Assembly: GCA_039720395.1 (NCBI GenBank) | Contig: CM077820.1 | Span: 18,001,923 to 18,065,922 of the forward strand | DNA: 64,000 bases | Reading direction: 5' to 3' | Source: Liquidambar formosana | Lineage: Eukaryota; Streptophyta; Magnoliopsida; Saxifragales; Altingiaceae | Shown: piece after piece, positions 19,449-61,621 of the stretch | Layout of the letters: each line of letters opens with the position of its first letter | Numbering within the stretch: position 1 is the stretch's first letter | Position numbers and translations under genes: made by a program | The notes under the pieces: model-generated | Told to the model about the DNA's origin: nothing | The model's database searches: none | What the model saw: the letters and a program-made list of their open reading frames with translations, nothing else

Positions 19449-19540
19449 ACTAAATGAGTTTAAATTCGTATCAGGGTAATAATAGGGACAAATGAGTGCT
19501 TTTCAGAAAAAGGCTCTCAAACTAAAGAATTATAAAGTCC

Positions 19541-20208
19541 TTTTTTATTTTATTTTATTTTATTTTATCTTAAATTTTACAAGCAAACCGATATTATTAA
19601 AAGAGGGGGGAAAAAAAAAACCAGGGGAAGGACAACCACAGAAAAAACACCAAAAAAGAGCAACACATAATGAACTGAAAAACCCCTATCTAAAAACAAA
19701 GCCCAAAACACCACTAAAAGAAAAGGAAAGCAAATGGAAAAAACACCCTAATGGAATACTGCCACACCCCAAAAGGAACTCGCCTTGACGAAACCAACAA
19801 TTGCAAGACAATACCCAAAAAGAATACAGCAAACCACACAAGGAAATTGCCTGCCCACACCAGCAATTGCAAATAATATAGCCATGATGATGACATAGAA
19901 TGAGCAAAGAAGATCGCAATCCACCTTGTTGATTCTTCACAGCTGATCTTTCCTACCAGTCCACCTTTCCCTCAACAAGCTCAACTTTCCCTTTTAAAAA
20001 AGGCACTAGCTCCAGTCACTCATCAACAAGCCACACACCAACAGCTAACATCTGCCAAAAGCTACATAAACCACTAAAACACTAATTAGAAGAAATCCAA
20101 CAGAGAAACGAGTGGCTGCGGCACCCCCCTGAGAGGCAACCCTCCCTAAACTAGAACATCCCAGCAACAAGAAAAAGATCCACCAAACAAGCCCCAAGCA
20201 TGGAAACT
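19541..20208 (-). mobile_element. 3'-truncated LINE-like insertion, present in every unit
   Basis: A T-run (poly-A tail on the minus strand) follows TAAAGTCC, and the segment ends at a second TAAAGTCC, so it has an 8-bp target duplication. Equivalent segments lie at about 22589-27100 (split by a solo LTR), 29506-30190, 32601-34971 (split), 37398-38119, 40481-41139, 43506-44150, 46514-47161, 49524-50182, 52546-53190, 55553-56200 and 58565-59135 (cut). The tail side reads AATAATATCGGTTTGCTCAT on the minus strand. No RT domain is present, so family assignment rests on tail and duplication only. Shared duplications show one insertion before amplification. Confidence 0.65.
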
Positions 20209-20609
20209 TAAAGTCCATTCATATAAATCCCCAAGCACAATAATGGAAACTTAAATTTCATTGTACTACCTAGTCACAAATTAATATGAAGAAATCATGT
20301 TCCCAAATATTATGATGTTGATATTCAACACTTTTTGTATGGGTTTAATTATAAAGACTTGTGGTTCAAATATATAGTAGGTATCACAAGATTTGATGCT
20401 ACTAGGGTGCGAACTTAGTTGGAATGTTAGATTTTCTTTTATGCCTCTTCTCTTTCTCCAAAAAAAATAAAATAATAAAGTAAATAGTGGCATGTGGAAA
20501 AAAGTCGCCCCATATATTATTCATCCCCAATAGCTTATTGGTACATGGTAAACAAAAACAAACCTAAACTATGGAAGAACTGGGTAGGTGAAGAAATGGG
20601 TGAAGCTCC

Positions 20610-21014
20610 TCATGCAATTAAAGCGCAGCGATGCCAAACTGTTTGACTTGTTTTCAAAACTCTTGCGCTATATTTATGGAACAAAGGCATGGAGAGGAGT
20701 CCCTTAACAGTTGTATCGAGGCATCACTTCCCCAAGTACACCAAATTGCGGCAACAAATGATGTTGAGATCTACTCTCCTGAATACACTAGCAAATATTT
20801 TTCACCCACAATGAGGGACCAACTTTTTTCTACAGTTAAGTACATAAATGATCTCTTCCCAGGAGATATGAACTTGCAGTTGTCGTGGCGTATGCACAAC
20901 TGCTTTAGATGCAAGCCCAGCCTCGATCAACATTGGACTACCTACCTCGATTAACATCGCACTACTAGCTAAGAACAAGACTACCAAGGTGTATAGGCTG
21001 TGGATCTTCGTTAT
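20610..21014 (-). pseudogene. ECA1/prolamin-like gene copy 1, dead
   Basis: The start codon has become ATA (21012-21014), and residue 71 is a TGA (20802-20804) just after the second conserved cysteine. Arg52 and Gly62 are also replaced (by Trp and Arg). This left-most copy is the most damaged by point changes. Confidence 0.85.
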
Positions 21015-23459
21015 ACTATGATAAGGAAAATTGTTGCTTTTCTTTTGTTGTAATCGGACACTGAGTGTTCGGATGGAAATAGATCACAAAATAATGTTGT
21101 ATTTATAGCTACAAAATGGTTTTAAAGATGCTTCCAAACGTTTTTTTACCATTGATGTTGCATTGAATTGGCTTTTACTGATCTTCATTCATTACAATTT
21201 CTTTTGCATGTTATTAAACTGTTCATTATAAATTGATGATGAAATAATTATGTGCATTTCTTTTCCTGAAATTAGGAAATAAATAAAGAATGAAACAACA
21301 AAACACATTGGGCACTAGATATTGTCAACTATATTCGAGAAAACAACCCTAGAAACATGTTGTTTATGAGAATTATTAGCTAGGAATTTTTTTCCTACAG
21401 TCTTTTCGCCATCAGATACCAATATACCGATCCCTACATAAACATCAAAAAGTTATTTTATTTTTCACCTGGAATATCAGTCCCTCCCCAAAAAAAAAGG
21501 GGGGGGGGCTTCCAAATAAGGTTTTTTCAGAATTCAAAAATTATTATAAAGTTATGTTTCTGCTGCTAATGGAACACTAGTTTATTATGTAATCCGTCAA
21601 CATTTTTTTGTTCTTTTTATTTCTTTATTTATTCAATTTTTTTCCTAATAGGGTATCTATACTATCTGTTCGATTAATACCTTACACACAGATAACGCCA
21701 TTGCCTACATCACATTAGTTAACCCTCAAGATAATTAATCATCTAATAACTAACCCCAAACAAATGAAATTAATATATCTTCTGACATTTTAATCTCTTA
21801 ACCTCATAAATAGAATGAAACAAACATGGAAAAAGGTCCCAACACGTTCTGATAAAGCTTGTTTCCCGGCCACTACTTCTCATTTTGTCCAGCCTTGATC
21901 CCATTTATTGATCACTATACTAAATTACAGGCCCCGTCTAAAAAATTTAGTAATTTTCATACCAATAAATCGAAAATTCAATATTAATTTTCATGAAGCT
22001 TGGTAAATTCAAACTTGGACATGGTGCATAAGTCTAGATGAAGTTAAATTATCTTGCTAAAACATTGGACACATTTACAGTTAATTAGGGATTCGCTAAA
22101 GTATTTGTTTGAGAACGAAAATGCTAAAACACACTAAATAACAACTCAATAGCATTATTCGCTATTGTAACAATGACAAAGTAGTTATAGAATCTAAATC
22201 ATGAAATTTTTTGTTATGAACTACAAAAAAAAAAAAAAAAAAAAAAAAAACCAAAACAAAAAATAGTCCATGCCATATGAAATTGGTGAAAATAGCAACT
22301 AGATGTAATGTTTCCCATTCAAAATAGTTTTGGCTTAGGCGTTAGTTATGTTTGAAACATCAGGTTACAAAACACGAATAAAGCAACTCAACAAATCTGA
22401 TACCATCTTACCAAAAAAATCCTTCAAATTCCATAGGATTACAAAACATATTGACTTTAATTAATCAGCAGTATTAATTTACCATGAAATTAATACTCTA
22501 AATGAGTTTGAATTCGTATCAGGGTAATAATAGGGACAAGTGAGTGCTTTTTAGAAAAAGGTTCTCAAACTAAAGAATTATAAAGTCCTTTTTTTTTTTT
22601 TTTTTTTTTTGATGAGCAAACCGACATTATTAAAAAAGCAAAAGGTACCAAAAAAAAAAAAAAAAAAAAAAAAAAAACACCAGGGGAAGGACAACCACGG
22701 AAAAAACACCAAAAAAGAGCTACACAGAATGAACCGAAAAAGCCCTATCCAAAAACAAAGCCCAAAACACCACTAAAAGAAAAGGAAACGAAAAAAACAC
22801 CCTAATAGAATACTGCTGTAGACACCCCATTTTCACCCCCATGAGATCATGATAGCATTTGGTTAGGTTTAGAAGCATCTAGGAGTCCCTAAGCCTTAAA
22901 GGACAATTTTGCCCTTTTAAGCCTTAGGAGAGTAGGTCATCATTGCATGCATATTTTTGTCTCTTTGTTGAGTCCCATCACTTGCATTTAGTTTCTAGGG
23001 TCATTTTAGATATGTTTGTCAAATTTGGTTCAATTCCAGATAGGTTTGGATAGTTAATTAGAACTTTTACAACTTGAAGGGCAATTTCGTCTTTTACTTC
23101 GTATATTTTCCAATTGACTTCCAAATTTTCTCCGGAGTGTTCCATTGGCCTTAGAATGATGAAATGAGTCTAATTGAAGTGCCAATTTAATTTATTGATA
23201 GGTTTGGGATTGGTTCACCACATTACCCTATGCTTAATTGACCTTTGTTCAGGTAATTGCCTCATGAAAACCCAGCCACCTGACCGTGGTCAGGGATTCT
23301 TGGTTCAAGAATATTCTAGGCTTATTCTACATTGAATCCTTGAAATTTTGGCTTTTGAATCACTCAAATCGGAGTTAAAATGAAGAATTTAAGTCCGTTT
23401 GAAGTTAGGAGTCCAAACTAAGTCAGGAATCCTCAAAACCGAGGAAACCTGAGTTCACT

Positions 23460-23537
23460 CTCGGGTGACCAGTTCACCCAACCGGTCCAACCGGTTGGGC
23501 CAACCGGTCCAACCGGTTCACCCAACCGGTCACCCGA
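23460..23537. promoter_or_regulatory. Palindromic module with AACCGGTT repeats in solo LTR
   Basis: The outer arms CTCGGGTGACC and GGTCACCCGAG match the other modules, but the core is built from CCAACCGGT/ACCGGTT repeats instead of GGCTAGCC. It ends about 198 bp before the TATA box, as in the other LTR. Confidence 0.8.
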
Positions 23538-23735
23538 GCCCTTCGTCCTGATTTCTCTCTTTTTGAGTTTTTGACGAAATGGGACTCTACCATTCCGATT
23601 TTCAGCCTTCTAAAGGACTTCTAAGCCTATTGGGAGGTGGTTTTGAGTTGTTTAACATTCATGGGATTTAATCACAGCCCTAGATTGATTTTATGGTGAA
23701 TTAATCCCAACCATTGGTTCATATGGTTGGTTGGT

Positions 23736-23743
23736 TATAAATA
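23736..23743 (+). promoter_or_regulatory. Solo LTR TATA box
   Basis: TATAAATA follows CCATTGGTT and precedes the block TCAGCATAA. All three are also found in the same order in the minus-strand LTR promoter near 15672. Confidence 0.7.
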
Positions 23744-24668
23744 GAGGCTCATTCATCAGCATAAAGGACTTTTGGCTTATTTGACACTTCATCTTCGTAA
23801 GAGAGAGAGGGACCACGAGTTTGAACACACCCATATCACTTGGAGGAGGCTTTCTACTGCAATTTTGAAGGAGAACTAGAAGGGAACCAAGCCAAAGAGA
23901 AGGAAGAACGCAGCGAAGACCCTTGCTTCATTGTAAGTCTCCTTTGCTTTCTTTTACGATTCCTTCTTCTTCTACTCCATTCTCTGCATAATTATGGCTT
24001 AGAATTGATTTAGGAATCATATGTACTCTATATTTTAGAGTGTATATGATTCAAAGATGATGAGAATGCATGTTAGTGGATTAGGATTGTGAATTGCTTG
24101 CTGTTAGGATAGTTTCTCCCTTAAGGATAGAGGTACGTTTTGCATGAAAAATTGGTTGATGTGTTTATGCCGTTTTCTCTTCATGGTTCAATTATATGCA
24201 TGATTTTAAGCATCTTTTGTATAGGACACTTGCTGTATAAGCCTCGTCTTCATAGGTGTATGGATGATTATCCTTTTCGAGGATAATTATCGTCCTTAGA
24301 GGGTGAGGTTGTGCATAGGTGCTTTCTAGAGTGTGTTTAAGTGTGCTGTGAGTTTCTTTGCATTCTTAGGTATATATTTTACATAGGATATGTGAAGAAA
24401 CCATTCATATGGAGTGATTTCTACGTAAAATTATCTCCTGATAGTTTTACTTAAGAAAGCTCGCCGTAAGGATGATTATTTCACATTCTTACATAAAGTA
24501 CTTACCTAAGGCATCATGGTAGATTTTCTTTTCATGTTTAGGATTATCATATGATATTTTCATCATGGTAATGCCTATTTAGCATGTTTTTGATAGTTTT
24601 GTGCATGTTAGGGTGTTTAGAGCATATAGGAGCATATAGGATTGAGTTATTCTTTTGATTTTTATTAT

Positions 24669-25016
24669 TTGCATGATTTTTAGGTCATTGTATGCATGTT
24701 TAGTATTCTATCCAGATTTGATTTAGGTCTTCTAATGATGATTTGAGCATGAATATGAATGATTTGAGCTTAATAATTGCCTTATGGAATACATAGGGTG
24801 ATTAATTGATGATTTCTCGATGTTTCGGGATTATTTGCATGAGTGTTAGGTCATTATATGCATATTTAGTATTCTGTCCAGATTTGAATTAGGTTTTCTA
24901 ATGATGATTTGAGCATGAATATGAATGGTTTGAGCTTAATAATTGCCCTATAGAATACATGGGGTGATTAATTGATGTTTTCTCGATGTTTCGGGATAAT
25001 TTGCATATGGTAAGTG
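24669..25016. repeat. Tandem duplication of about 166-176 bp inside the solo LTR
   Basis: Two copies begin at the GCATGA motifs 24671 and 24837 and share long blocks such as GATGATTTGAGCATGAATAT and TTCTCGATGTTTCGGGAT. It is non-coding. Confidence 0.75.
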
Positions 25017-25106
25017 GTTCATGGTGAGTATTATGTGAATTGTTCTCTTCTCCCTCTCTTGGGTTATTCTCTTTACTTTGGACTATAATTCTTAAGTTTC
25101 CATGTT

Positions 25107-25320
25107 TTCTAAAATTCTGTTTTGAATTAGAGTTCTATCTCTTTTAGAATTCTATTTCTCTTAAAATTCTTTTTGAATTAGAGTTCTATCTCTTTTAGAA
25201 CTCTACTTTCATTAAAATTCTGTTTTAATTAGAGTTCTATCTCTTTTAGAATTCTATTTCTCTTAAAATTCTGTTTTAATTAGAGTTCTATCTCTTTTAG
25301 AATTCTACTTTTCTTAAACT
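25107..25320. repeat. Tandem repeat of TTAGAGTTCTATCTCTTTTAG, about 52-60 bp period
   Basis: Four to five copies of a TTAGAGTTCTATCTCTTTTAG / AATTCTATTTCTCTTAAAATT unit occur here. Similar sequence resumes at about 25728 after the Helitron, so the Helitron interrupted the array. Confidence 0.75.
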
Positions 25321-25333
25321 CTTTTTTTTTTAA

Positions 25334-25724
25334 CTAGATATAGCACACGTGCGTTGCACGTGAATATTTTTAAATGATATTAGTTATACAAAATAATAAA
25401 TACATAAAGATTTTATATTTTTTTCATAAAAGAGAAAGTTTAAAATTCAAGAGTACATATTTTTTCCTATTTGGGTTTGGTTTTATTTAATTATTATATG
25501 AATTATAGTTTCCTTAAAATTCTTATAAGGTATGTGTTTTAAAATATATTAAGGAATGTGTTTTAAAATTATAGTTTTCTTAGAATTCTTATTAAAGTAT
25601 GTGTTTTATATTGCTATATTTCTAATATATGCAGAAGGGTAGTTGTATATTTAAAATTTAAAATAAGGGTATATTAGTCAATCAAAAGTTTTTCTTACAT
25701 TCATCTTTTTATAGGTAGTATAGA
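25334..25724 (-). mobile_element. Non-autonomous Helitron nested in the solo LTR
   Basis: On the minus strand it starts TCTATACTACC and ends CTAG, preceded by the hairpin CACGTGCAACGCACGTG, and it sits between A and T. Those are Helitron hallmarks. It is related end to end with 62523-62894. It carries no Rep/helicase. Confidence 0.85.
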
Positions 25725-27504
25725 TTAGAGTTCTATATCTCTTAGAATTCTACTTTTCTTAAACTTCTTTTTGGATAAGAGTTCTATCTCTTTTCAACTT
25801 CTATCTTTTCTCAAATTCCTTTTTTGGAAACTCTTCTTCTTTTTCAAACTCTTCTTTTCTTTTAATGGAAACTTAGGGTTTATAGTTCATTGTAAAGGGA
25901 ATAACCCCTTCTCAATCGAACTACGTGGACTTTGATCCTTACATCTTTGTATGTAGGGTACGTAGGCGCTCATTTGATGTTCAAGTCCGCCCTAGGATAC
26001 TAAGTATCCTAGGTTTTCTTTTTCTTTTTCTTTCTTTTCTTTCTTCTTACCCATTTGTCCATCACATATCTGTTAGTGGATAGGATGGATTTGTTTGCTT
26101 GCTCATGTATTCATCACATATTTGCTAGTGGATAGGATGGATTTGTTTGTTCATTCTCTCTATCTCTTACTTGCTTTCCATATCTCTCATACTTGTTCAT
26201 GGATGTTTACATGCTTTATGGATGTTTACTGCTTTATGGATGTTCATGGATGAATGTGGATTATTTATGGATGATTCTTTACATATGCATGGTGACTAAT
26301 TAGGAAGTGATTGAAATAGCCCATATAAATTCAGAGACCCATTTTGGGGCGATGTGGGTGCCTATAGGATGTTTCCTAGAACCTTCCCACATCGTAACTT
26401 AGTCTCCGAATCCTCTCTTGTTTTGATAGACCTGCTTTTCCTTGATCGGAGTCATGTGGTTTGTTTTCAAAGGTTTTCTTTAAAAACTGTTTTTATGGTT
26501 TTCCTCTTTTCCTAAAAATGAGGTGGCGACTCCTTATTTGTTTTGTTTTTGTGAACCTTTTAAAAACCAGATTTTTATTGATTTAAATCTCTACAAGTCT
26601 TTTTAAAAGAAGGGTTCTCCTTCCTTCCTCTCCTGGATCGAAACCCGTGGTTCACAACTGCCACACCCCAAAAGGAACTCGCCTGACCACACCAACAATT
26701 GCAAGACAATACCCAAAAAGAATACAGCAAACCACACGAGGAAATTGCCTGCCCGCACTAGCAATTGCAAACAATATAGCCATGATGACGACATCGAATG
26801 ATCAAAGAAGATCGCAATCCACCATGTTGATTCTTCACAGCTGATCTTTCCTACCAATCCATCTTTCCCTCAATAAGCTCAAATTTCTCTTTACAAAAAA
26901 GGCACTAGCTCCAGCCACTCATCAACAAGCCACACACCAACAGCTAACATCTGCCAACAGCTACATAAACCACTACAACACTGATCAAAAGAAATACAAC
27001 AGAGAACACGAGCAGCTGCAGCACCCCCCTAAAGGCAACCCGCCCCAACAACCCAGCAACAGCAAAAAGATCCACCAAACAAGCCCTAAGCATGGAAACT
27101 TAAAGTCCATTCATATAAATCCCCAAGCACAATAATGGAAACTTAAATTTTATTGTACTACCTAGTCACAAATTAATATAAAGAAATCATGTTCCCAAAT
27201 ATTATGATGTTGATATTCAACTCTTTTTGTAAGGGTTTAATTATAAAGACGTGTGGTTTAAATATAGAGTAGGTATCACCAGATATGAAAGATCTAGGGA
27301 GTGAACTTAGTTGGAATGTTAGATTTTCTTTTATGCCCATTCTCTTTCTCCAAAAAAATAAATAAATAAATAAGGTAAATAGTGGCATGTGGTAAAAAGT
27401 CGCCCCATATATTATTCAACTCCAGTAGCTTATTGGTACATGGTAAACAAAAACAAACTTAAACTATGGAAGAACTGGGTAGGTGAAGAAATGGGTGAAG
27501 CTCC

Positions 27505-27909
27505 TTATGCAATTAAAGCGCAACGATGCCAAACTGTTTGACTTGTTTTCAAAACTCTTACGCTATATTTATGGAACAAAGGCATGGAGAGGAGTCCCTT
27601 AACAGTCGTATCGAGGCATCGCTTCCCTAAGTACACCAAATTGCGACAACAAATGATGTTGAGATCCACTCTCCTGAATACACTAGCAAATATTTTTCTC
27701 CCACAATGAGGGACCAACTTTTTTCCACAGTTAAGTACATAAATGATCTCTTCTCGGGAGATATGAACCTGCAGTTGTCATGGCGTACGCACAACTGCCT
27801 TAGATGCAAGCCCAGACTCAATCAACATTGGACTACCTGCCTCGATTAACATCACACTACCAGCTAAGATCAAGACTACCAGGGTGTATAGGTTGTGGAG
27901 CTTCGTCAT
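27505..27909 (-). pseudogene. ECA1/prolamin-like gene copy 2, nonsense at codon 44
   Basis: The ATG at 27909 and the rest of the 134-codon frame are intact, with all six cysteines encoded. But Arg44 (CGA in sister copies) is TGA at 27778-27780, a CpG-type transition. The stop codon is TAA instead of TGA. The break is before the cysteine domain, so no mature peptide is expected. Confidence 0.88.
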
Positions 27910-29567
27910 ACTACGATAAGGAATATTACTGCTTTTCTTTTGTTGTAATGGGACACTGAGTGTTCGGATGGAAATAGATCACAAAATAATGTTGTATTTA
28001 TAGCTACAAAATGGTTTTAAAGATGCTTCCAAACGTTTTTTACCGTTGATGTCGCATTGAATTGGCTTTTACAAATCTTCATTCATTACAATTTCTTTTG
28101 CATGTTATTAAACTGTTCATTATAAATTAACGAATGAAATAATTATGTGCTTTTCTTTTCCTGAAATGAGGAAATAAATAAATAATGAAACAACAAAACA
28201 CATTGGGCACTGGATATTTGTCAACTATATTTGAGAAAACATCCCCAGAAACATGTTTACAAGAATTATTAGCTAAGAATATTTTTCGTTACAGTCTTTT
28301 CGCCATCAGATACCAATATACCAATTCCTATATAAACATCAAAATGTTATTTTATTTTCCACCCGGAATATCGGTCCCCAAAAAAAAAAAAAAAATTATA
28401 AAGTTATGTTTCTGCTGCTAGTTGAACACAAGTTTATTTGCTATAGGGTTTTTGTAGAATTAAAAAATTATTATAAAGTTATGTTTCTGCTGCTAGTTGA
28501 ACACAAGTTTATTATGTAATCCATCAACATTTTTTTGTTCTTTTTATTTCTTTGTTTATTGAATTTTTTTCCTAATAGGGTATCTATACTATTTGTTCGA
28601 TTAATACCTTACACACAGATAAGGCCATTGCCTACATCACATTAGTTAACCCTCAAGATAATTAATGATCTAATAACCAACCCCAAACAAATGAAATTAA
28701 TATATCGTCTGACATTTTAATCTCTTAACCTCATAAATAGAATGAAACAAACATGGAAAAAGGTCCCAACACGTTCTGATAAAACTTGTTTCCCGGCCAC
28801 TACTTCTCATTTTGTCTGGCCTTGATCCCATTTATTGATCACTATACTAAATTACAAGCCCTGTCTAAAAATTTATTAATTTTCATACCACTAAATCGAA
28901 AATTCAATATTAATTTTCATGAAGCTTGGTAAATTCAAACTTGGACATGGGGCATAAGTCTAGATGAAGTTAAATTATCTTGCTAAAACATTGGACACAT
29001 TTGCAGTTAATTAGAGATTCGCTAAACGAAGTATTTGTTTGAGAACAAAATGCTAAAATAATCTAAATAACAACTCAATAGCATTATTTGCTATTATAAC
29101 AATGACAAAGTAGTTACAGAATCTAAATGATGAAATTTTTTGTTATGAACTACAAAAAAAAAAAAACAAAAAACAAAAAATAGTCCATGCCATGTGAAAT
29201 TGGTGCAAATAGCAACTAGATGTAATGTTTCCCATTCAAAATAGTTTTGGCTTAGGCATTAGTTATGTTTGAAACATCAGGCAACAAAACACGAATAAAG
29301 CAACTCAACAAATCTGATACCATCTTACCTAAAAAATCCTTCAAATTCCACAGGATTACAAAACATATTGACTTTAATTAATCAACAGTATTAATTTACC
29401 ATGAAATTAATACTCTAAATGAGTTTGAATTCGTATCAGGGTAATAATAGGGACAAGTGAGTGCTTTTAAGAAAAAGATTCTCAAACTAAAGAATTATAA
29501 AGTCCTTTTTTTCTTTTTTTTTAATGAACAAACCGATATTATTAAAAAAGCAAAGGTACAAAAAAAA

Positions 29568-29598
<31 letters not shown>

Positions 29599-30591: not shown

Positions 30592-30997
30592 TCATGCAAT
30601 TAAAGTGCAACGATGCCAAACTGTTTGACTTGTTTTCAAAACTCTTGCGCTATATTTATGGAACAAAGGCATAGAGAGGAGTCCCTTAACAGTCGTATCG
30701 AGGCATCGCTTCCTTAAGTACACCAAATTGCGACAACAAATGATGTTGAGATCCACTCTCCTGAATACACTAGCAAATATTTTTCTCCCACAATGAGGGA
30801 CCAACTTTTTTCCATAGTTAAGTACATAAATGATCTCTTCTCGGGAGATATGAACCTGCAGTTGTCGTGGCATATGCACAGCTGCTTTAGATGCAAGCCC
30901 TAGCCTCGATCAACATTGCACTACCCACCTCGATTAACATCACACTACCAACTAAGAACAAGACTACCAAGGAGTATAGGTTGTGGAGCTTCGTCAT
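30592..30997 (-). pseudogene. ECA1/prolamin-like gene copy 3, frameshifted
   Basis: One extra base near 30900 (CCCTAG where sister units have CCCAG) breaks the frame after about residue 32. The downstream domain is readable from 30879, but the first conserved cysteine is also replaced by Tyr. The ATG at 30997 and the TATA box are kept. Confidence 0.88.
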
Positions 30998-32679: not shown

Positions 32680-32714
<35 letters not shown>

Positions 32715-33245: not shown

Positions 33246-34896
33246 TGTTGGGAATCGAACAAGAGGGAAAAATTGAAGTGCAGGAATATAAAAAATTTTC
33301 CTACGATTCCACAGCCCATGAATCTAACTATGCATAACACAAAATCAAACCCTAACTACAAAGAGGGTTAGAACACTTACAGAATTTTTGTCTTCTCCTT
33401 TTTGCTCCAAGCTTTGATTCTGGATAGCGGTGAATGAGCAGCCCAAGTGTGCTGCCTCCAACGGTATCCACACCTAGCTAGAGCTTCAAGTCCTTTCCTC
33501 TTTTTCCTTGTTGTTGCTAGTGTAGGAGAAGAGAGGAGAGAGAGAGAGGGAGGCTGGAATTTTCAGCCAACCCTTTGGGAAGTTCAACTTGTTGTGATGT
33601 CATCACATCACACTATATATTTATAGCCCACCAAGGGGGGCCGGCCATGAGGCAGAACCCACTTAGGGTTTTGTGTAATTACTATTAATTACACAATAAC
33701 CCTTCTTAATTATATCATATATAAATTTGGCCTTAAAGAACTATTCTTTTTGCACTCATACCCTTTCTCTCATAGACTTTAAAGCTCATCTTGCATGATC
33801 AGTGTGTGACCCATTGGGTTCACATCATCAAGTAGTAGGAATAGCACGAGGTGTGCACAATGGAATTCTTTCCATTGAGGGTCTAATTGGAACTCCTTTC
33901 AATTCCCTAATTGATTATAACTCACTTATATCAATTAGGGCTTCTACTAACCATGAGTAACACCTAGCATATGGCTCATGGTGTGGTCCTTAATGAGGTG
34001 AATAGTCATTTACAAAGAACCCTTCTATTATAGTTTATAGGTTACAATTGCATCCTTCCTTCAACACAATGTCTCCAATTGAACTAATAGGACATGGAAG
34101 TCTGTCAAGTCCCTAGTTCAATTACTTTATACTCATTTATAGATATCAACTCATTGATGAACTCATGAAACTCTTTTCATATTCATCCTACCATGGCCAT
34201 GGATTTAATGAGTTATATTATGAATGCTATATGAGACATTCTCTCTGTTTTTCTGAGAGTGATGGATCCCTTGTTGATCACTCACATGCCTTCATACACA
34301 TAGCAGTAGGGCCAATGAACACCTTTGCAAACCCCTGAATAGGATTTGCACTTAGTGTTATCAAACTTCTAAAGCTACATGTATAAGACAACTATGATGT
34401 CTCAGGTCTTAGGATTACTTGTACCACTATAACAATGAGAAACTGATTGACAGGCAGGATAAAACTCCATTCAGTTTATCTCATATCTTTGGTCACATTC
34501 AGTGTACCTATTCTCGTAATAGGCACCCACTTGTTGGTTGTAGTGTCTCCACACAAATAACTTGAGACTAGCTATCCTCCTATAGAGTCAACCTAACAAG
34601 TGATAGTCCTATGGTTCATTACTGTCCATCATAGTGAACCTTCAACTAGGAATGCTTTAGCAATTTAGTACAGAGATATATCTATAGTCTCAAAATTACA
34701 ACTCTTTGTAATTCCATATTCTCAACTCTAACTCCATGGACATATTATGTAAATATAAATGATGCATATAAACATAATAGAATAAGCCCTTTTATTAAAT
34801 CAATAATAAATGTGACATACATAAATGAAATCAAATGATTGTTCCTAATCTATAAACAATCATCTCTATGATTGGCTCTAGGGCATAATCCTAACA
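33246..34896 (-). mobile_element. Solo LTR, Angela/BARE-like Ty1/copia, in unit 4
   Basis: On the minus strand it starts TGTTAGGATTATGCCCTAGA and ends GATTCCCAACA. AGGCA target duplications lie at 33241-33245 and 34897-34901, inside the LINE-like fragment of unit 4. The length is 1651 bp. The ATGCCCTAGAG-type start recalls Angela/BARE LTRs, an identification from memory. TATAAATA on the minus strand (33618-33625) supports the orientation. There is no internal region. Confidence 0.88.
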
Positions 34897-35300: not shown

Positions 35301-35780
35301 TTATTGGTACATGGTAAACAAAAATAAACTTAAACTATAGAAGAACTGGGTAGGTAAAGAAATGGGTGAAGCCCCACATGCAGTTAAAGCGCAACGATGC
35401 CAAACTGTTTGACTTGTTTTCAAAACTCTTGCGCTATATTTATGGAACAAAGGCATGGAGAGGAGTCCCTTAACAGTTGTATCGAGGCATCGCTTCCCTA
35501 AGTACACCAAATTGCGGCAACAAATGATGTTGAGATCCACTCTCCTAAATACACTAGCAAATATTTTTCTCCCACAATGAGGGACCAACTTTTTTCCACA
35601 GTTAAGTACATAAATAATCTCTTCTCGGGAGATATGAACCTGCAGTTGTCGTGGCATACGCACAACTGCTTTAGATGCAAGCCTAGCCTCGATCAACATT
35701 GGACTACCTGCCTCGATTAACATTGCACTACCAGCTAAGAACAAGACTACTAAGGTGTATTGGTTGTGGAGCTTTGTCAT
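35301..35780 (-). CDS. ECA1/prolamin-like gene copy 4, stop-loss with 25-aa extension
   Basis: This is a complete ORF of 159 aa. The first 134 residues match the family, with signal peptide and cysteines at C-x7-C, CC, C, C. The usual TGA stop is TGT here (35376-35378), so translation would continue through normally untranslated DNA into a hydrophobic, unrelated tail. Two other private changes are Leu7 to Gln in the signal peptide and Gly33 to Arg. It lies beside the unit carrying the copia solo LTR. It may be a decaying copy rather than a new protein. Confidence 0.7.
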   Translation of the reverse strand: MTKLHNQYTLVVLFLAGSAMLIEAGSPMLIEARLASKAVVRMPRQLQVHISREEIIYVLNCGKKLVPHCGRKIFASVFRRVDLNIICCRNLVYLGKRCLDTTVKGLLSMPLFHKYSARVLKTSQTVWHRCALTACGASPISLPTQFFYSLSLFLFTMYQ

Positions 35781-38519: not shown

Positions 38520-38924
38520 TTATGCAATTAAAGCGCAACGATGCCAAACTGTTTGACTTGTTTTCAAAACTCTTGCGCTATATTTATGGAACAAAGGCAT
38601 GGAAAGGAGTCCCTTAACAGTCGTATCGAGGCATCGCTTCCCTAAGTACACCAAATTACGGCAACAAATGATGTTGAGATCCACTCTCCTGAATACACTA
38701 GCAAATATTTTTCTCCCACAATGAGGGACCAACTTTTTTCCACAATTAAGTACATAAATGATCTCCTCTCGGGAGATATGAACCTGCAATTGTCGTGGCG
38801 TTCGCACAACTGCTTTAGATGCAAGCCCAGCCTCGATCAACATTGGACTACCTGCCTCGATTAACATAGCACTACCAACTAAGAACAAGACTACCAAGGT
38901 GTATAGGTTGTGGAGCTTCGTCAT
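38520..38924 (-). CDS. ECA1/prolamin-like secreted cysteine-rich protein, copy 5
   Basis: This is an intact 134-aa ORF without introns, starting at the ATG shared by all copies. It belongs to the older subfamily lacking the extra Trp at position 82 (RRVDLNI). The stop is TAA. Ala16 is Val within the signal peptide. All six cysteines are present, so it is the only undamaged, normal-length member of the 134-aa type in view. Confidence 0.82.
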   Translation of the reverse strand: MTKLHNLYTLVVLFLVGSAMLIEAGSPMLIEAGLASKAVVRTPRQLQVHISREEIIYVLNCGKKLVPHCGRKIFASVFRRVDLNIICCRNLVYLGKRCLDTTVKGLLSMPLFHKYSARVLKTSQTVWHRCALIA

Positions 38925-41541: not shown

Positions 41542-41950
41542 TCATGCAATTAAAGCGCAGCGATGCCAAACTGTTTGACTTGTTTTCAAAACTCTTGCGC
41601 TATATTTATGGAACAAAGGTGTGGAGAGGAGTCCCTTAACAGTCGTATCGATGGCATCGCTTCCCTAAGTGCACCAAATTACGGCAACAAATGATGTTGA
41701 GATCCCATACTCTCCTGAATACACTAGCAAATATTTTTCTCCCACAATGAGGGACCAACCTTTTTCCACAATTAAGTACATAAATGATCTCTTCTCGGGA
41801 GATATGAACCTGCAGTTGTCGTGGCGTTCGCACAACTGCTTTAGATGCAAGCCCAGACTGGATCAACATTGGACTACCTGCCTCGATTAACATCGCACTA
41901 CCAGCTAAGAACAAGACTACCAAGGTGTATAGGTTGTGGAGCTTCGTCAT
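41542..41950 (-). pseudogene. ECA1/prolamin-like gene copy 6, frameshifted near codon 99
   Basis: This is the first unit with the extra codon for Trp82. One inserted base near 41652 (GATGGC where sisters have GAGGC) shifts the frame just after the fifth cysteine. The ORF stops at 41636 after 104 aa, losing the last conserved Cys and the VW motif. Otherwise it is close to copy 7. Confidence 0.88.
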
Positions 41951-44550: not shown

Positions 44551-44958
44551 TCATGCAATTAAAGCGCAACGATGCCAAACTGTTTGACTTGTTTTCAAAA
44601 CTCTTGCGCTATATTTATGGAACAAAGGTGTGGAGAGGAGTCCCTTAACAGTCGTATCGAGGCATCGCTTCCCTAAGTGCACCAAATTGCGGCAACAAAT
44701 GATGTTGAGATCCCATACTCTCCTGAATACACTAGCAAATATTTTTCTCCCACAATGAGGGACCAACCTTTTTCCACAATTAAGTACATAAATGATCTCT
44801 TCTCGGGAGATATGAACCTGCAGTTGTCGTGGCGTTCGCACAACTGCTTTAGATGCAAGCCCAGACTGGATCAACATTGGACTACCTGCCTCGATTAACA
44901 TCGCACTACCAGCTAAGAACAAGACTACCAAGGTGTATAGGTTGTGGAGCTTCGTCAT
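44551..44958 (-). CDS. ECA1/prolamin-like secreted cysteine-rich protein, copy 7
   Basis: This is a 135-aa intronless ORF. Residues 1-24 form a signal peptide (hydrophobic LYTLVVLFLAGSAML), and a short MLI(E/Q) duplication follows. The mature domain has Cys61, Cys69, Cys88, Cys89, Cys99 and Cys131. Flanking motifs CCRNLVHLGKRC and SQTVWHRC are typical of the plant prolamin-like domain (PF05617, ECA1 gametogenesis-related, DD11-like). Known relatives are secreted and expressed mainly in the female gametophyte; EC1 members act in gamete fusion. Expression and role here are inference. A TATAAATA lies about 90 bp upstream. The start was chosen because it is shared by all copies and directly precedes the signal peptide. 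Confidence 0.88.
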   Translation of the reverse strand: MTKLHNLYTLVVLFLAGSAMLIEAGSPMLIQSGLASKAVVRTPRQLQVHISREEIIYVLNCGKRLVPHCGRKIFASVFRRVWDLNIICCRNLVHLGKRCLDTTVKGLLSTPLFHKYSARVLKTSQTVWHRCALIA

Positions 44959-47561: not shown

Positions 47562-47969
47562 TCATGCAATTAAAGCGCAACGATGCCAAACTGTTTGACT
47601 TGTTTTCAAAACTCTTGCGCTATATTTATGGAACAAAGGTGTGGAGAGGAGTCCCTTAACAGTCGTATCGAGGCATCGCTTCCCTAAGTGCACCAAATTG
47701 CGGCAACAAATGATGTCGAGATCCCATACTCTCCTGAATACACTAGCAAATATTTTTCTCCCACAATGAGGGACCAACCTTTTTCCACAATTAAGTACAT
47801 AAATGATCTCTTCTCGGGAGATATGAACCTGCAGTTGTCGTGGCGTTCGCACAACTGCTTTAGATGCAAGCCCAGACTGGATCAACATTGGACTACCTGC
47901 CTCGATTAACATCGTACTACCAGCTAAGAACAAGACTACCAAGGTGTATAGGTTGTGGAGCTTCGTCAT
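47562..47969 (-). CDS. ECA1/prolamin-like secreted cysteine-rich protein, copy 8
   Basis: This is an intact 135-aa ORF. It differs from copy 7 at Ala19 to Thr in the signal peptide and Asn85 to Asp before the CC pair. It keeps the Gln31-Ser32 variant after the signal peptide. The cysteine framework is unchanged. Confidence 0.88.
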   Translation of the reverse strand: MTKLHNLYTLVVLFLAGSTMLIEAGSPMLIQSGLASKAVVRTPRQLQVHISREEIIYVLNCGKRLVPHCGRKIFASVFRRVWDLDIICCRNLVHLGKRCLDTTVKGLLSTPLFHKYSARVLKTSQTVWHRCALIA

Positions 47970-50582: not shown

Positions 50583-50990
50583 TCATGCAATTAAAGCGCA
50601 ACGATGCCAAACTGTTTGACTTGTTTTCAAAACTCTTGCGCTATATTTATGGAACAAAGGTGTGGAGAGGAGTCCCTTAACAGTCGTATCGAGGCATCGC
50701 TTCCCTAAGTGCACCAAATTGCGGCAACAAATGATGTCGAGATCCCATACTCTCCTGAATACACTAGCAAATATTTTTCTCCCACAATGAGGGACCAACC
50801 TTTTTCCACAATTAAGTACATAAATGATCTCTTCTCGGGAGATATGAACCTGCAGTTGTCGTGGCATTCGCACAACTGCTTTAGATGGAAGCCCAGCCTT
50901 GATCAACATTGGACTACCTGCCTCGATTAACATCGCACTACCAGCTAAGAACAAGACTACCAAGGTGTATAGGTTGTGGAGCTTCGTCAT
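50583..50990 (-). CDS. ECA1/prolamin-like secreted cysteine-rich protein, copy 9
   Basis: This is an intact 135-aa ORF of the Trp82/Asp85 type. Private changes are Ala35 to Pro and Thr42 to Met in the segment between signal peptide and cysteine domain, with Lys31 replacing Gln31. The mature domain is otherwise identical to copy 8. Confidence 0.88.
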   Translation of the reverse strand: MTKLHNLYTLVVLFLAGSAMLIEAGSPMLIKAGLPSKAVVRMPRQLQVHISREEIIYVLNCGKRLVPHCGRKIFASVFRRVWDLDIICCRNLVHLGKRCLDTTVKGLLSTPLFHKYSARVLKTSQTVWHRCALIA

Positions 50991-53590
50991 ACTACGAAAA
51001 GGAATACTGTTGCTTTTCTTTTGTTGTAATAGGACACTGAGTGTTTGGATGGAAATAGATCACGAAATAATGTTGTATTTATAGCTGCAAAATGGTTTTA
51101 AAGATGCTTCCAAACGTTTTTTTACCGTTGATGTTGCATTGAATTGGCTTTTACTAGTCTTCATTCATTACAATTTCTTTTGCATGTGATTAAACTGTTC
51201 ATAATAAATTGATGAATGAAATAATTATGTGATTTTCTTTTCCTGAAATCAGGAAATACACAAAGAATGAAACAACAAAACACATTGGGCACTTGATATT
51301 TGTCAACTATACTTCAGAAAACATCCCCAGAAACATGTTGTTTGCGAGAATTATTAGCTAGGAATTTTTTTCTTACAGTTTTTTTGCCACAAGATACCAA
51401 TATACCGATTCCTATAAAAACATCAAAATGTTATTTTATTTTTACCTGGAATATCGGTCCCAAAAAAAAAAAAAAAAGGCTTCCAAATAGGGTTTTTTAA
51501 GAATTAAAAAAATTTTATAAAGTTATGTTTCTGACACTAATTGAACACTAGTTTATTATGTAATCCGTCAACATTTTCTTGTTCTTTTTATTTCTTTGTT
51601 TATTCAATTTTTTTTTCCAAACAGGGTATCTATACTATCTGTTTGACTAATACCTTACACACAGATAAGGCCATTGCCGACATCACATTAGTTGACCCTC
51701 AAGATAATTAATCATCTAATAACCAACCCCAAACAAATGAAATTAATATATCGTTTGACATTTTCATCTCTTAACCTCATAAATAGAATGAAACAAACAT
51801 GGAAAAAGGTCCCAACACTTTTCGATAAAGCTTATTTCCCGGCCACTACATCTCATTTTGTTCGGCCTTGATCCCATTTATTGATCACTATACTAAATTA
51901 TAGGCCCGGTCTAAAAAATTTAGTAATTCTCGTACCATCAAATCGAAAATTCAATATTAATTTTCATGAAGCTTGGTAAATTCGAACTTGGACATGGTGC
52001 ATAAGTCTAGATGAAGTTCAATTATCTTGCTAAAACATTGGACACATTTACAGTTAATTAGATATTTGCTAAACGAAGTATTTGTTTGAGAATGAAAATG
52101 CTAAAATACACTAAATAACAACTCAATTGCATTATTTGCAATTGTAACAATGACAAAGTAGTAACAGAATCTAAATGATGAAAGTTTTTGTTGTGAACCC
52201 CAAAAATAAAAAACAAAAAAAGGTCCATGCCATATGAAATTGGTGAAAAGAGCAACTAGATGTAATGTTTCCCATTCAAAATAGTTTTGGCTTAGGCGTT
52301 AGTTATGTTTGAAACATCAGGCTACAACACACGAATAAAGCAACTCAACAAATCTGATACCATCTTACCTAAAAAATCCTTCAATTTCCACAGGATTACA
52401 AAACATATTGACTTTAATTAAACAGCAGCATTAATTTACCATGGAATTAATACTCTAAATGAGTTTGAATTCGTATCAAGGTAATAATAGGGACAAGTGA
52501 GTGCTTTTCTGAAAAAGGTTCTCAAATTAAAAAGTTATAAAGTCCTTTGTTTTTTTTTTTTATGAGCAAACCGATATTTTTAAAAAAGCAAAAGGTCAAA
52601 AAAAAAAAAAAAAAAAAACACCTAGGGGAAGGACAACCATGGAAAAAACACCAAAAAAGAGCTACACAGAATGAACCGAAAAACCCCTATCCGAAAACAA
52701 AGCCCAAAACACCACTACAAGAAAAGCAAATGGAAAAAACACCCTAATAGAATACTACCACACCCCTAAAGGAACTCGCCTGACCACTCCAACAATTGCA
52801 AGACAATACCCAAAAAGAATACAGCAAACTACACAAGGAAATTGTCTGCCTGCACTAGCAATTGCAAACAATATAGCCATGATGATGACTTAGAATGAGC
52901 AAAGAAGATTGCAATCCACCGTGTTGATTCTTCACACCTGATCTTTCCTAACAGTCCACCTTTCCCTCAACAAGCTCAACTTTAACGTTACAAAAAAGGC
53001 ACTAGCTCCAGCCACACACCAACTGTCAACATCTGCCAAAAGCTACATAAACCATTGAAACACTGATCAGAAAAAATCCAACAAAGAACACGAGCAGCTG
53101 ACACACCCCCCTGAAAGGCAACCCTCCCCAAACTAGAACATCCCAGCAACAGCAAAAAGATCCACCAAACAAGCCCCAAGCATGGAAACTTAAAGTCCAT
53201 TCATATAAATCCCCAAGCACAATAATGGAAACTTAAATTTTATTGTACTAGCTAGTCACAAATTAATATGAAGAAATCATGTTCCCAAATATTATAATAT
53301 TGATATTCGACACTTTTTGTATGGGTTTAATTATAGAGACGGGTGGTTTAAATATAGAGTAGGTATCACAAGATTTGAAGGATCTAGGGTGCAAACTTAG
53401 TTGGAATGTTAGATTTTCTTTTATGCCCCTTCTCCTTCTCTAAAAAAACAAATAAATAAAGTAAATAGTGGCATGTAGTAAAAAGTCGCCCCATATATTA
53501 TTCATCTCCAGTATCTTATTGGTACATGGTAAACAAAAACAAACTTAAGGTATGGAAGAATTGGGTAGGTGAAGAAATGGGTTAAGCTCC

Positions 53591-53998
53591 TCATGCAATT
53601 AAAGCGCAACGATGCCAAACTGTTTGACTTGTTTTCAAAACTCTTGCGCTATATTTATGGAACAAAGGTGTGGAGAGGAGTCCCTTAACAGTCGTATCGA
53701 GGCATCGCTTCCCTAAGTGCACCAAATTGCGGCAACAAATGATGTCGAGATCCCATACTCTCCTGAATACACTAGCAAATATTTTTCTCCCACAATGAGG
53801 GACCAACCTTTTTCCACAATTAAGTACATAAATGATCTCTTCTCGGGAGATATGAACCTGCAGTTGTCGTGGCGTTCGCACAACTGCTTTAGATGCAAGC
53901 CCAGCCTTGATCAACATTGGACTACCTGCCTCGATTAACATCGCACTACCAGCTAAGAACAAGACTACCAAGGTGTATAGGTTGTGGAGCTTCGTCAT
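53591..53998 (-). CDS. ECA1/prolamin-like secreted cysteine-rich protein, copy 10
   Basis: This is an intact 135-aa ORF whose protein is identical to that of copy 11. Its unit shares private variants with unit 9 (AACACTTTTCGATAAAG, CATGGAATTAATAC), so the neighbouring units arose by very recent duplication or conversion. Confidence 0.88.
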   Translation of the reverse strand: MTKLHNLYTLVVLFLAGSAMLIEAGSPMLIKAGLASKAVVRTPRQLQVHISREEIIYVLNCGKRLVPHCGRKIFASVFRRVWDLDIICCRNLVHLGKRCLDTTVKGLLSTPLFHKYSARVLKTSQTVWHRCALIA

Positions 53999-56600
53999 AC
54001 TACGAAAAGGAATACTATTGCTTTTCTTTTGTTGTAATAGGACACTGAGTGTTTGGATGGAAATAGATCACGAAATAATGTTGTATTTATAGCTGCAAAA
54101 TGGTTTTAAAGATGCTTCCAAACGTTTTTTACCGTTGATGTTGCATTGAATTGGCTTTTACTAGTCTTCATTCATTACAATTTCTTTTGCATGTTATTAA
54201 ACTGTTCATAATAAATTGATGAATGAAATAATTATGTGATTTTCTTTTCCTGAAATCAGGAAATACACAAAGAATGAAACAACAAAACACATTGGGCACT
54301 TAATATTTGTCAACTATACTTCAGAAAACATCCCCAGAAACATGTTGTTTGCGAGAATTATTAGCTAGGAATTTTTTTCTTACAGTTTTTTTGCCACAAG
54401 ATACCAATATACCGATTCCTATAAAAACATCAAAATGTTATTTTACTTTTACCTGGAATATCGGTCCCAAAAAAAAAAAAAAAAGGCTTCCAAATAGGGT
54501 TTTTTAAGAATTAAAAAAATTTTATAAAGTTATGTTTCTGACACTAATTGAACACTAGTTTATTATGTAATCCGTCAACATTTTTTTGTTCTTTTTATTT
54601 CTTTGTTTATTCGATTTTTTTTCCAAACAGGGTATCTATACTATCTGTTTGACTAATACCTTACACACAGATAAGGCCATTGCCGACATCACATTAGTTG
54701 ACCCTCAAGATAATTAATCATCTAATAACCAACCCCAAACAAATGAAATTAATATATCGTTTGACATTTTCATCTCTTAACCTCATAAATAGAATGAAAC
54801 AAACATGGAAAAAGGTCCCAACACTTTTCGATAAAGCTTATTTCCCGGCCACTACATCTCATTTTGTTCGGCCTTGATCCCATTTATTGATCACTATACT
54901 AAATTATAGGCCCGGTCTAAAAAATTTAGTAATTCTCGTACCATCAAATCGAAAATTCAATATTAATTTTCATGAAGCTTGGTAAATTCGAACTTGGACA
55001 TGGTGCATAAGTCTAGATGAAGTTCAATTATCTTGCTAAAACATTGGACACATTTACAGTTAATTAGATATTTGCTAAACGAAGTATTTGTTTGAGAATG
55101 AAAATGCTAAAATACACTAAATAACAACTCAATTAGCATTATTTGCAATTGTAACAATGACAAAGTAGTAACAGAATCTAAATGATGAAATTTTTTGTTG
55201 TGAACCCCAAAAATAAAAAACAAAAAAAGGTCCATGCCATATGAAATTGGTGAAAAGAGCAACTAGATGTAATGTTTCCCATTCAAAATAGTTTTGGCTT
55301 AGGCGTTAGTTATGTTTGAAACATCAGGCTACAACACACGAATAAAGCAACTCAACAAATCTGATACCATCTTACCTAAAAAATCCTTCAATTTCCACAG
55401 GATTACAAAACATATTGACTTTAATTAAACAGCAGCATTAATTTACCATGGAATTAATACTCTAAATGAGTTTGAATTCGTATCAAGGTAATAATAGGGA
55501 CAAGTGAGTGCTTTTCTGAAAAAGGTTCTCAAATTAAAAAGTTATAAAGTCCTTTGTTTTTTTTTTTTTTATGAGCAAACCGATATTTTTAAAAAAGCAA
55601 AAGGTCAAAAAAAAAAAAAAAAAAAAAACACCTAGGGGAAGGACAACCATGGAAAAAACACCAAAAAAGAGCTACACAGAATGAACCGAAAAACCCCTAT
55701 CCGAAAACAAAGCCCAAAACACCACTACAAGAAAAGCAAATGGAAAAAACACCCTAATAGAATACTACCACACCCCTAAAGGAACTCGCCTGACCACTCC
55801 AACAATTGCAAGACAATACCCAAAAAGAATACAGCAAACTACACAAGGAAATTGTCTGCCTGCACTAGCAATTGCAAACAATATAGCCATGATGATGACT
55901 TAGAATGAGCAAAGAAGATTGCAATCCACCGTGTTGATTCTTCACACCTGATCTTTCCTAACAGTCCACCTTTCCCTCAACAAGCTCAACTTTAACGTTA
56001 CAAAAAAGGCACTAGCTCCAGCCACACACCAACTGTCAACATCTGCCAAAAGCTACATAAACCATTGAAACACTGATCAGAAAAAATCCAACAAAGAACA
56101 CGAGCAGCTGACACACCCCCCTGAAAGGCAACCCTCCCCAAACTAGAACATCCCAGCAACAGCAAAAAGATCCACCAAACAAGCCCCAAGCATGGAAACT
56201 TAAAGTCCATTCATATAAATCCCCAAGCACAATAATGGAAACTTAAATTTTATTGTACTAGCTAGTCACAAATTAATATGAAGAAATCATGTTCCCAAAT
56301 ATTATAATATTGATATTCGACACTTTTTGTATGGGTTTAATTATAGAGACGGGTGGTTTAAATATAGAGTAGGTATCACAAGATTTGAAGGATCTAGGGT
56401 GCAAACTTAGTTGGAATGTTAGATTTTCTTTTATGCCCCTTCTCCTTCTCTAAAAAAACAAATAAATAAAGTAAATAGTGGCATGTAGTAAAAAGTCGCC
56501 CCATATATTATTCATCTCCAGTATCTTATTGGTACATGGTAAACAAAAACAAACTTAAGGTATGGAAGAACTGGGTAGGTGAAGAAATGGGTTAAGCTCC

Positions 56601-57008
56601 TCATGCAATTAAAGCGCAACGATGCCAAACTGTTTGACTTGTTTTCAAAACTCTTGCGCTATATTTATGGAACAAAGGTGTGGAGAGGAGTCCCTTAACA
56701 GTCGTATCGAGGCATCGCTTCCCTAAGTGCACCAAATTGCGGCAACAAATGATGTCGAGATCCCATACTCTCCTGAATACACTAGCAAATATTTTTCTCC
56801 CACAATGAGGGACCAACCTTTTTCCACAATTAAGTACATAAATGATCTCTTCTCGGGAGATATGAACCTGCAGTTGTCGTGGCGTTCGCACAACTGCTTT
56901 AGATGCAAGCCCAGCCTTGATCAACATTGGACTACCTGCCTCGATTAACATCGCACTACCAGCTAAGAACAAGACTACCAAGGTGTATAGGTTGTGGAGC
57001 TTCGTCAT
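56601..57008 (-). CDS. ECA1/prolamin-like secreted cysteine-rich protein, copy 11
   Basis: This is an intact 135-aa ORF from the conserved ATG at 57008. A one-base insertion upstream (CTACTGAAAAG) opens an in-frame ATG at 57056 that would add 16 residues. The conserved start is preferred, because it directly precedes the signal peptide and is shared by all copies. It is the last complete gene of the array. Unit 12 is cut off before its gene. Confidence 0.86.
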   Translation of the reverse strand: MTKLHNLYTLVVLFLAGSAMLIEAGSPMLIKAGLASKAVVRTPRQLQVHISREEIIYVLNCGKRLVPHCGRKIFASVFRRVWDLDIICCRNLVHLGKRCLDTTVKGLLSTPLFHKYSARVLKTSQTVWHRCALIA

Positions 57009-59135
57009 ACTACTGAAAAGGAATACTATTGCTTTTCTTTTGTTGTAATAGGACACTGAGTGTTTGGATGGAAATAGATCACGAAATAATGTTGTATTTA
57101 TAGCTGCAAAATGGTTTTAAAGATGCTTCCAAACGTTTTTTTACCGTTGATGTTGCATTGAATTGGCTTTTACTAGTCTTCATTCATTACAATTTCTTTT
57201 GCATGTTATTAAACTGTTCATAATAAATTGATGAATGAAATAATTATGTGATTTTCTTCTCCTGAAATCAGGAAATACACAAAGAATGAAACAACAAAAC
57301 ACATTGGGCACTTAATATTTGTCAACTATACTTCAGAAAACATCCCCAGAAACATGTTGTTTGCGAGAATTATTAGCTAGGAATTTTTTTCTTACAGTTT
57401 TTTTGCCACAAGATACCAATATACCGATTCCTATAAAAACATCAAAATGTTATTTTACTTTTTACCTGGAATATCGGTCCCAAAAAAAAAAAAAAAAGGC
57501 TTCCAAATAGGGTTTTTTAAGAATTAAAAAAATTTTATAAAGTTATGTTTCTGACACTAATTGAACACTAGTTTATTATGTAATCCGTCAACATTTTTTT
57601 GTTCTTTTTATTTCTTTGTTTATTCGATTTTTTTTCCAAACAGGGTATCTATACTATCTGTTTGACTAATACCTTACACACAGATAAGGCCATTGCCGAC
57701 ATCACATTAGTTGACCCTCAAGATAATTAATCATCTAATAACCAACCCCAAACAAATGAAATTAATATATCGTTTGACATTTTCATCTCTTAACCTCATA
57801 AATAGAATGAAACAAACATGGAAAAAGGTCCCAACACTTTCTGATAAAGCTTATTTCCCGGCCACTACATCTCATTTTGTCCGGCCTTGATCCCATTTAT
57901 TGATCACTATACTAAATTATAGGCCCGGTCTAAAAAATTTAGTAATTCTCGTACCATCAAATCGAAAATTCAATATTAATTTTCATGAAGCTTGGTAAAT
58001 TCGAACTTGGACATGGTGCATAAGTCTAGATGAAGTTCAATTATCTTGCTAAAACATTGGACACATTTACAGTTAATTAGATATTTGCTAAACGAAGTAT
58101 TTGTTTGAGAATGAAAATGCTAAAATACACTAAATAACAACTCAATAGCATTATTTGCAATTGTAACAATGACAAAGTAGTAACAGAATCTAAATGATGA
58201 AATTTTTTGTTGTGAACCCCAAAAATAAAAAACAAAAAATGGTCCATGCCATATGAAATTGGTGAAAAGAACAACTAGATGTAATGTTTCCCATTCAAAA
58301 TAGTTTTGGCTTAGGCGTTAGTTATGTTTGAAACATCAGGCTACAACACAGGAATAAAGCAACTCAACAAATCTGATACCATCTTACCTAAAAAATCCTT
58401 CAATTTCCACAGGATTACAAAACATATTGACTTTAATTAAACAGCAGCATTAATTTACCATGAAATTAATACTCTAAATGAGTTTGAATTCGTATCAAGG
58501 TAATAATAGGGACAAGTGAGTGCTTTTCTGAAAAAGGTTCTCAAATTAAAAAGTTATAAAGTCCTTTGTTTTTTTTTTTTATGAGCAAACCGATATTTTT
58601 AAAAAAGCAAAAGGTCAAAAAAAAAAAAAAAAACACCTAGGGAAAAGGACAACCATGGAAAAAACACCAAAAAAGAGCTACACATAATGAATCGAAAAAC
58701 CCCTATCCGAAAACAAAGCCCAAAACACCACTACAAGAAAAGCAAATGGAAAAAACACCCTAATAGAATACTACCACACCCCAAAAGGAACTCGCCTGAC
58801 CACTCCAACAATTGGAAGACAATACCCAAAAAGAATACAGCAAACTACACAAGGAAATTGCCTGCCCGCACTAGCAATTGCAAACAATATAGCCATGATG
58901 ATAACTTAGAATGAGCAAAGAAGATTGCAATCCACCATGTTGATTCTTCACACCTGATCTTTCCTACCAGTCCACCTTTCCCTCAACATGCTCAACTTTC
59001 ACTTTACAAAAAAGGCACTAGCTCCAGCCACACACCAACTGTCAACATCTGCCAAAAGCTACATAAACCATTGAAACACTGATCAGAAAAAATCCAACAA
59101 AGAACACGAGCAACTGCCGCACCCCCCTGAAAGCA

Positions 59136-61596: not shown

Positions 61597-61621
61597 ATTC
61601 ATACATTAGGAGGGGTGAGGG

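Follow-up and report, generated by a model that had tools for sequence, protein, structure and literature searches.

The locus described here raises the question of what kind of element results when one small cysteine-rich peptide gene is repeated head to tail along a contig. The original prediction had offered three readings of the repetition, namely dosage amplification, a reproductive arms race and a gene-bearing macrosatellite. We analyzed a window of 64 kb, the whole stretch of DNA at C1:18001923-18065922 (Liquidambar formosana, Altingiaceae, Saxifragales; genome of 718 Mb in 370 contigs), together with its matches elsewhere in the genome. The answer that we consider reasonably probable is a gene-bearing macrosatellite whose secreted peptide is likely reproductive, in which a complete, apparently single-exon gene is repeated locally in tandem. 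The macrosatellite proved the best of the three readings, and it has a precedent in ATSAT5, as described in the available part of the report (PMC3422182).

Layout of the array and state of its gene copies

A blastn search with a reference unit of 3008 bp (unit 11, 54501..57508) and a tblastn search with the 135-aa protein revealed a head-to-tail run of approximately 3008-bp units at 19450..59133, with 11 gene copies that are all on the minus strand; the eleven copies in head-to-tail units of about 3.0 kb that had been predicted were thus seen. The ATG-side ends of the copies were placed by tblastn at 21014, 27909, 30997, 35780, 38924, 41950, 44958, 47969, 50990, 53998 and 57008. Successive copies are 3.0-3.15 kb apart in 8 of 10 intervals, and the remaining two spacings (6.9 and 4.8 kb) contain the insertions at 22817..26656 and 33246..34896. 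The 64-kb window does not contain any N.

An array of forty kilobases had been proposed, which is correct for the interval from 19450 to 59133, but the array is larger. Position 59133 is an insertion point, where the unit stops at unit position 1627 and restarts at unit position 1625 at C1:18102543; the array continues past the right edge of the window and 59133 is not its end. Four further gene copies were located to the right of the window, at C1 18.103, 18.106, 18.112 and 18.121 Mb, each with stops or frame changes. For the whole array we detected 15 gene copies, 7 open and 8 broken, across approximately 102 kb including insertions.

Each unit carries one apparently single-exon PF05617 (Prolamin-like) ORF, or its broken remnant, on the minus strand. 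The intact ORF is uninterrupted and encodes 134-135 aa with a hydrophobic N-terminus and six cysteines. Although eleven gene copies were found as claimed, only seven of them are open across the PF05617 domain. These are c04 (35301..35780), which has lost the usual stop and runs to 159 aa, c05 (38520..38924; 134 aa), and five copies of 135 aa: c07 (44551..44958), c08 (47562..47969), c09 (50583..50990), c10 (53591..53998) and c11 (56601..57008), with PF05617 matches recorded for c07, c08, c09 and c11. The other four are broken: c01 (20613..21014) has lost its ATG and contains two TGA codons, c02 (27508..27909) contains one TGA, c03 (30595..30997) has a frameshift and a Tyr at the first domain Cys, and c06 (41545..41950) has a frameshift right after the fifth Cys. 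The array copies look unannotated, annotation seemingly having passed them over; none of the five annotated or recorded relatives found by protein search was an array protein. The L. formosana proteins L1049_021244 and L1049_020648 are encoded, at full length and 100% identity, by loci of the genome. A separate 626-bp ENA record, whether a transcript or not, encodes a protein 94% identical to c11 and 97.8% identical to c05.

The encoded protein and its promoter

The proposed ECA1/prolamin-like family assignment was confirmed with the PF05617 Prolamin_like profile, which gave c11 a score of 41 bits compared to the curated cut-off of 22; the rows for the array copies were above the cut-off, and PF05617 was matched by all of 12 family members at E <= 0.001 and by all of 23 at E <= 1. 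The cysteines of c11 are at 61, 69, 88, 89, 99 and 131 and form the pattern C-x7-C-x18-CC-x9-C-x31-C, with x17 in place of x18 where copies lack the extra Trp, in agreement with the six-cysteine pattern read previously; VWHRC is present in all 11 copies. Variants that distinguish copies include the extra Trp (Trp82), Q31/K31 and N85/D85. An alignment of 23 sequences contained six invariant columns, every one a Cys, with the CC pair included. The N-terminus is hydrophobic, with a best 15-residue mean of 2.23 on the Kyte-Doolittle scale, and the product is probably secreted. We also observed in the leader, at residues ~17-32, a 24-bp in-frame duplication (MLIEAGSP MLIEAG) that is present in array copies and missing from the aligned dispersed paralogs.

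AlphaFold predicted an all-helical domain (mean pLDDT 87). A fold search with two models returned nothing above background, with no prolamin-superfamily chain among the 38 matches listed. The sequence profile had a single match among solved structures, Albumin 8 (PDB 1s6d), at an E-value of 0.0011 for the narrower of two profiles and 0.19 for the wider. We take Albumin 8, as well as peanut Ara h 6, to be 2S albumins.

The family is known from egg-cell signaling. EC1 (EGG CELL 1) proteins and the array protein have in common the PF05617 domain, six cysteines, an N-terminal hydrophobic leader and, as it appears for the array gene, a single exon. According to the part of the report that was available, EC1 proteins have a relatively conserved Trp after Cys1 and after Cys5 (PMC8702097), whereas at these positions c11 has Gly62 and Leu100. 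Because both marker Trp are replaced, the putative array protein belongs to the PF05617 family but not to EC1, and the EC1 reading of the original prediction was abandoned. Protein searches by family alignment (4 matches among the best 8000 candidates scored) and by paralog found no match beyond Liquidambar, and the matches listed for the array protein, the family alignment and the paralog included no Arabidopsis sequence.

A TATA box (CTATAAATA) was identified in the promoter alignment at about -93, approximately at 57096..57104 on the minus strand. All aligned sequences retain it, namely six of the 15 array copies and eight dispersed paralogs. The motif GTAACNT is a MYB98-like site; it was absent from the six array promoters scanned and was seen in four of eight paralogs.

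Multiplication of an insertion-bearing unit

The array had been described as homogeneous, which was not supported by the comparison of its copies. The likeness of gene copies c01-c04 to the other copies is 80-93% and that of unit 5 about 94%, while units 6-11 form a young core with mutual identities of 96.7-99.8%. The unit pairs follow a gradient: 99.8% for units 10 and 11, 99.0% for 7 and 8, 96.7% for 6 and 11, 93.6% for 5 and 11, and approximately 92% for 3 or 1 compared to 11. Rightward, identity to unit 11 changes from 97% to 95%, to 92% and to 87-91%.

The gene-free DNA of the unit had at least 45 matches in the genome (40 of 44 candidates scored), all at C1 17.22-18.25 Mb, C1 33.9 Mb and C8 24.47 Mb. 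At least 16 of these are full-length or nearly so, all of them between 18.023 and 18.123 Mb: the window contains 11, and 5 more follow on its right. Because the matches are confined to these three places, the unit is best classed as a local duplicon and not as a widely dispersed transposon.

Wherever an array unit spans the site, it carries an insertion of approximately 650 bp, with a poly-T end and direct repeats of AAAGTCC on both sides; in unit 11 it is at 55553..56201, with approximate ends. The dispersed units on C1 and C8 are 72-82% alike and, where they were read (loci L011, L021 and L023), the segment is missing and the site is empty. Since all array units spanning the site have the segment, it arrived before the amplification. 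An older form of the unit therefore gained the retroposon-like insertion and then multiplied head to tail at C1:18.02-18.12 Mb. The multiplication probably proceeded by repeated rounds of unequal crossing-over in which copies were born and lost, because neighboring units are the most alike, the young core is central, and the outer units are older, decayed and interrupted by transposons.

Two further insertions lie within the array, both of the TG...CA type: one of 3840 bp at 22817..26656 with a 5-bp duplication (ACTGC), and one of 1651 bp at 33246..34896 with a 5-bp duplication (AGGCA). Both are probably solo LTRs, the longer one because we looked for terminal direct repeats in 22817-26656 and found none. 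The array is split by a stretch of approximately 41.5 kb, the left part of which occupies 59134..64000 in the window and the far end of which is at C1:18102542. Its ends, as read, resemble those of CACTA elements: it starts with CACTACAA, finishes with TGTAGTG and is accompanied by a 3-bp duplication (AAG). Just inside this CACTA-type end, at 59296-60937, there are 31-bp tandem repeats (TATTGCATCAA...TTGCAATA), which are perhaps the subterminal repeats of the stretch. The search of Rfam at the gathering score gave no match within the window.

To the left of the array, the flank at 18660-19440 is repetitive: scoring 40 of 640 candidates gave many matches in other places, 77-86% identical to it. 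Gypsy-type retrotransposon ORFs with gag, RT, RNase H and integrase domains were seen on the minus strand at 6233-13113, a Plant mobile domain (PMD) ORF at 2289-2897 (89 bits), and, on the minus strand at 16637-17227, an ORF whose match to a MuDR-type DNA-binding domain was weak and under the cut-off (22.8 compared to 25 bits).

Competing explanations and the wider PF05617 family

We evaluated selection with codon models (M0, omega fixed at 1, two-branch, M1a/M2a) in our own implementation, not PAML, in which stop codons were treated as missing. The set of 18 sequences comprised 10 array copies (c01, c02, c04, c05, c07-c11 and the copy at C1 18.121 Mb) and 8 dispersed paralogs. The set excluded c03 and c06, which are frameshifted, as well as copies at 18.103, 18.106, 18.112 and 18.245 Mb, those at 17.40 and 17.83 Mb, and the second copies of the nearby C1 duplicate. 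Omega was 0.617 for the 18 sequences, with omega = 1 rejected (p = 1.3e-4), and 0.556 for the eight paralogs alone (p = 2.7e-4), so that purifying selection on the wider family is clear. Constraint within the array alone is suggestive only: omega was 0.713 for the 10 array copies (p = 0.16, not significant) and 0.529 for the 7 open array copies (p = 0.09), and fixing the array clade at omega 1 in the joint tree gave p = 0.10. Among units 6-11, variable columns make up 8 of 405 in the CDS and 136 of 2589 in the rest of the unit (p = 0.0025); the promoter side is approximately as slow as the CDS.

A direct precedent, with what appears from sequence to be the same anatomy, is ATSAT5 (SAT5) of Arabidopsis thaliana, for which PMC3422182 was the only paper found. 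In the portion of the paper available, ATSAT5 is a 2196-bp satellite monomer near the centromere of chromosome 5, in a block with 32 embedded copies of CRP3600, or ECA1-gametogenesis-related, genes (PMC3422182). All genes of the CRP3600 family but one are intron-free; egg and synergid cells express many of its members, and in leaves several of the dispersed ones carry transposon-like methylation. The expression shown is that of dispersed members, not of the 32 copies in the SAT5 block (PMC3422182). Both arrays consist of tandem 2-3-kb monomers, each with one small, in Liquidambar apparently, intron-free gene or pseudogene of the ECA1-related cysteine-rich family, and both have a few diverged dispersed monomers elsewhere, as far as this account goes (PMC3422182). 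They differ in unit length, 2.2 kb for ATSAT5 compared to 3.0 kb in Liquidambar, and in the interruption of the Liquidambar array by transposons. Methylation and synergid expression are features of the ATSAT5 family in the same partial source (PMC3422182), whereas the Liquidambar array is known from sequence alone. In tomato, ECA1-related and DUF784 genes are among the pistil-specific genes and were placed in the ovule or 'both', according to the part of the report available (PMC5500324). Among the literature matches listed we found no paper on the PF05617 family in Liquidambar.

Under the macrosatellite reading, each ~3-kb unit comprises a TATA-box promoter, an ORF for a probably secreted six-cysteine PF05617 protein, and flanks. 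An older form of the unit took in the retroposon-like insertion before it was multiplied head to tail, probably by unequal crossing-over. The intact copies might act together as a dosage set, and the ovule or female gametophyte may be where their product is secreted, in line with studied relatives. The dosage amplification of the original prediction is possible, though unproven. If the genes are expressed, Liquidambar would be a second plant lineage with a reproductive cysteine-rich peptide gene packaged in satellite-like repeats, and the graded series from young to old copies would let dosage, silencing and copy decay be compared.

A non-functional satellite would present a similar picture if neutral unequal exchange had carried the genes along as passengers that are open only since the core copies are young. 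The 8 broken copies among the 15 detected, an array omega not different from 1, and the absence of array proteins from the five annotated or recorded relatives agree with this explanation. We nevertheless find it rather unlikely, given the lower variability of the CDS relative to the rest of units 6-11, the omega of 0.53 for open copies (p = 0.09), the retained promoter, and the protein of the ENA record at 94% identity to c11. An assembly artefact, with haplotypes or repeat copies wrongly joined end to end, has a possible parallel nearby: places in C1 17.22-17.40 Mb recur ~433 kb further on, at 94-99.5% identity in five sampled pairs, as uncollapsed haplotypes could. An artefact is very unlikely for the array itself, where units have private changes, distinct insertions have their own target duplications and identity is graded; in addition, a single one of the 41 matches listed for the composite left flank (17700-19440; 40 of 640 candidates scored) is full-length, and the window is ungapped.

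The proposal of a reproductive arms race, in which the copies diversify by positive selection, fared worse still, and we regard it as highly improbable. It draws on c07-c11, which differ at six amino-acid sites with no synonymous difference (dS = 0), and on M2a, which assigned omega 1.5 to 28% of sites. M2a was not significantly better than M1a for the 18 sequences (p = 0.16), however, and the omega of the family falls short of 1; between c10 and c11 there is neither a synonymous nor a nonsynonymous difference. By our own estimate, finding no synonymous change among six is not unusual, with a chance of ~0.18 when three in four sites are taken to be nonsynonymous. Positive selection among copies was rejected since no codon model for it was significant and family omega is below 1.

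We also considered a silencing footprint of the SAT5 type. C>T changes in the array were found at 17 of 197 CG/CHG sites compared to 19 of 821 CHH sites (p = 1e-4). The excess is not specific to the array, because neighboring non-array duplicate pairs, used as a control, have an odds ratio of 3.2 and the array pairs 2.8 under the same counting; we therefore dropped it as evidence for the array.

PF05617 had at least 137 matches across the genome (150 of 156 candidates scored). The largest group listed, at C15:26290223-26514661, holds at least 40 matches, with 18 of 39 spacings at 2.3-2.95 kb. In 9.5 kb read from this cluster we found four intact 103-aa ORFs in units 86-94% alike. The C15 cluster resembles the C1 array in its many PF05617 matches, its partly regular kb-scale spacing and the likeness of its units. 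It differs in its 103-aa proteins, in the Trp after Cys1 and Cys5, and in its unit DNA, which as sampled is unrelated to the C1 unit and has only short simple-sequence matches in common with it. The scores suggest that the C15 cluster holds more than one subtype. It is conceivable, if on the whole doubtful, that PF05617 genes repeatedly and independently become gene satellites, in Arabidopsis as SAT5 and at least twice in Liquidambar (C1 and C15), with dose selection in one or two female-gametophyte cells favoring copy number and the repeat state silencing the genes elsewhere.

A midpoint-rooted tree of 21 proteins placed the array and the C1/C8 paralogs in one group (ultrafast bootstrap 88), which joined the C3/C4/C9/C10 genes at 73; the CW-motif proteins of C6, C13 (31.49 Mb), C14 and C15 formed a separate group at 98. 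C6, C13 and C14 carry genes that have both Trp and are of the longer, EC1-like form. Family members and their flanks occur twice on C1, at 17.22-17.40 and 17.65-17.83 Mb (loci L009-L014 and L038-L041). For five sampled pairs, of which one spans only 1.6 kb, the best alignment has 94-99.5% identity, and the duplicate may be a recent segmental duplication or uncollapsed haplotypes. Further PF05617 clusters were seen at C13 29.09-29.20, C6 35.58-35.64, and C3 5.66-5.69 and 43.83-43.86 Mb.
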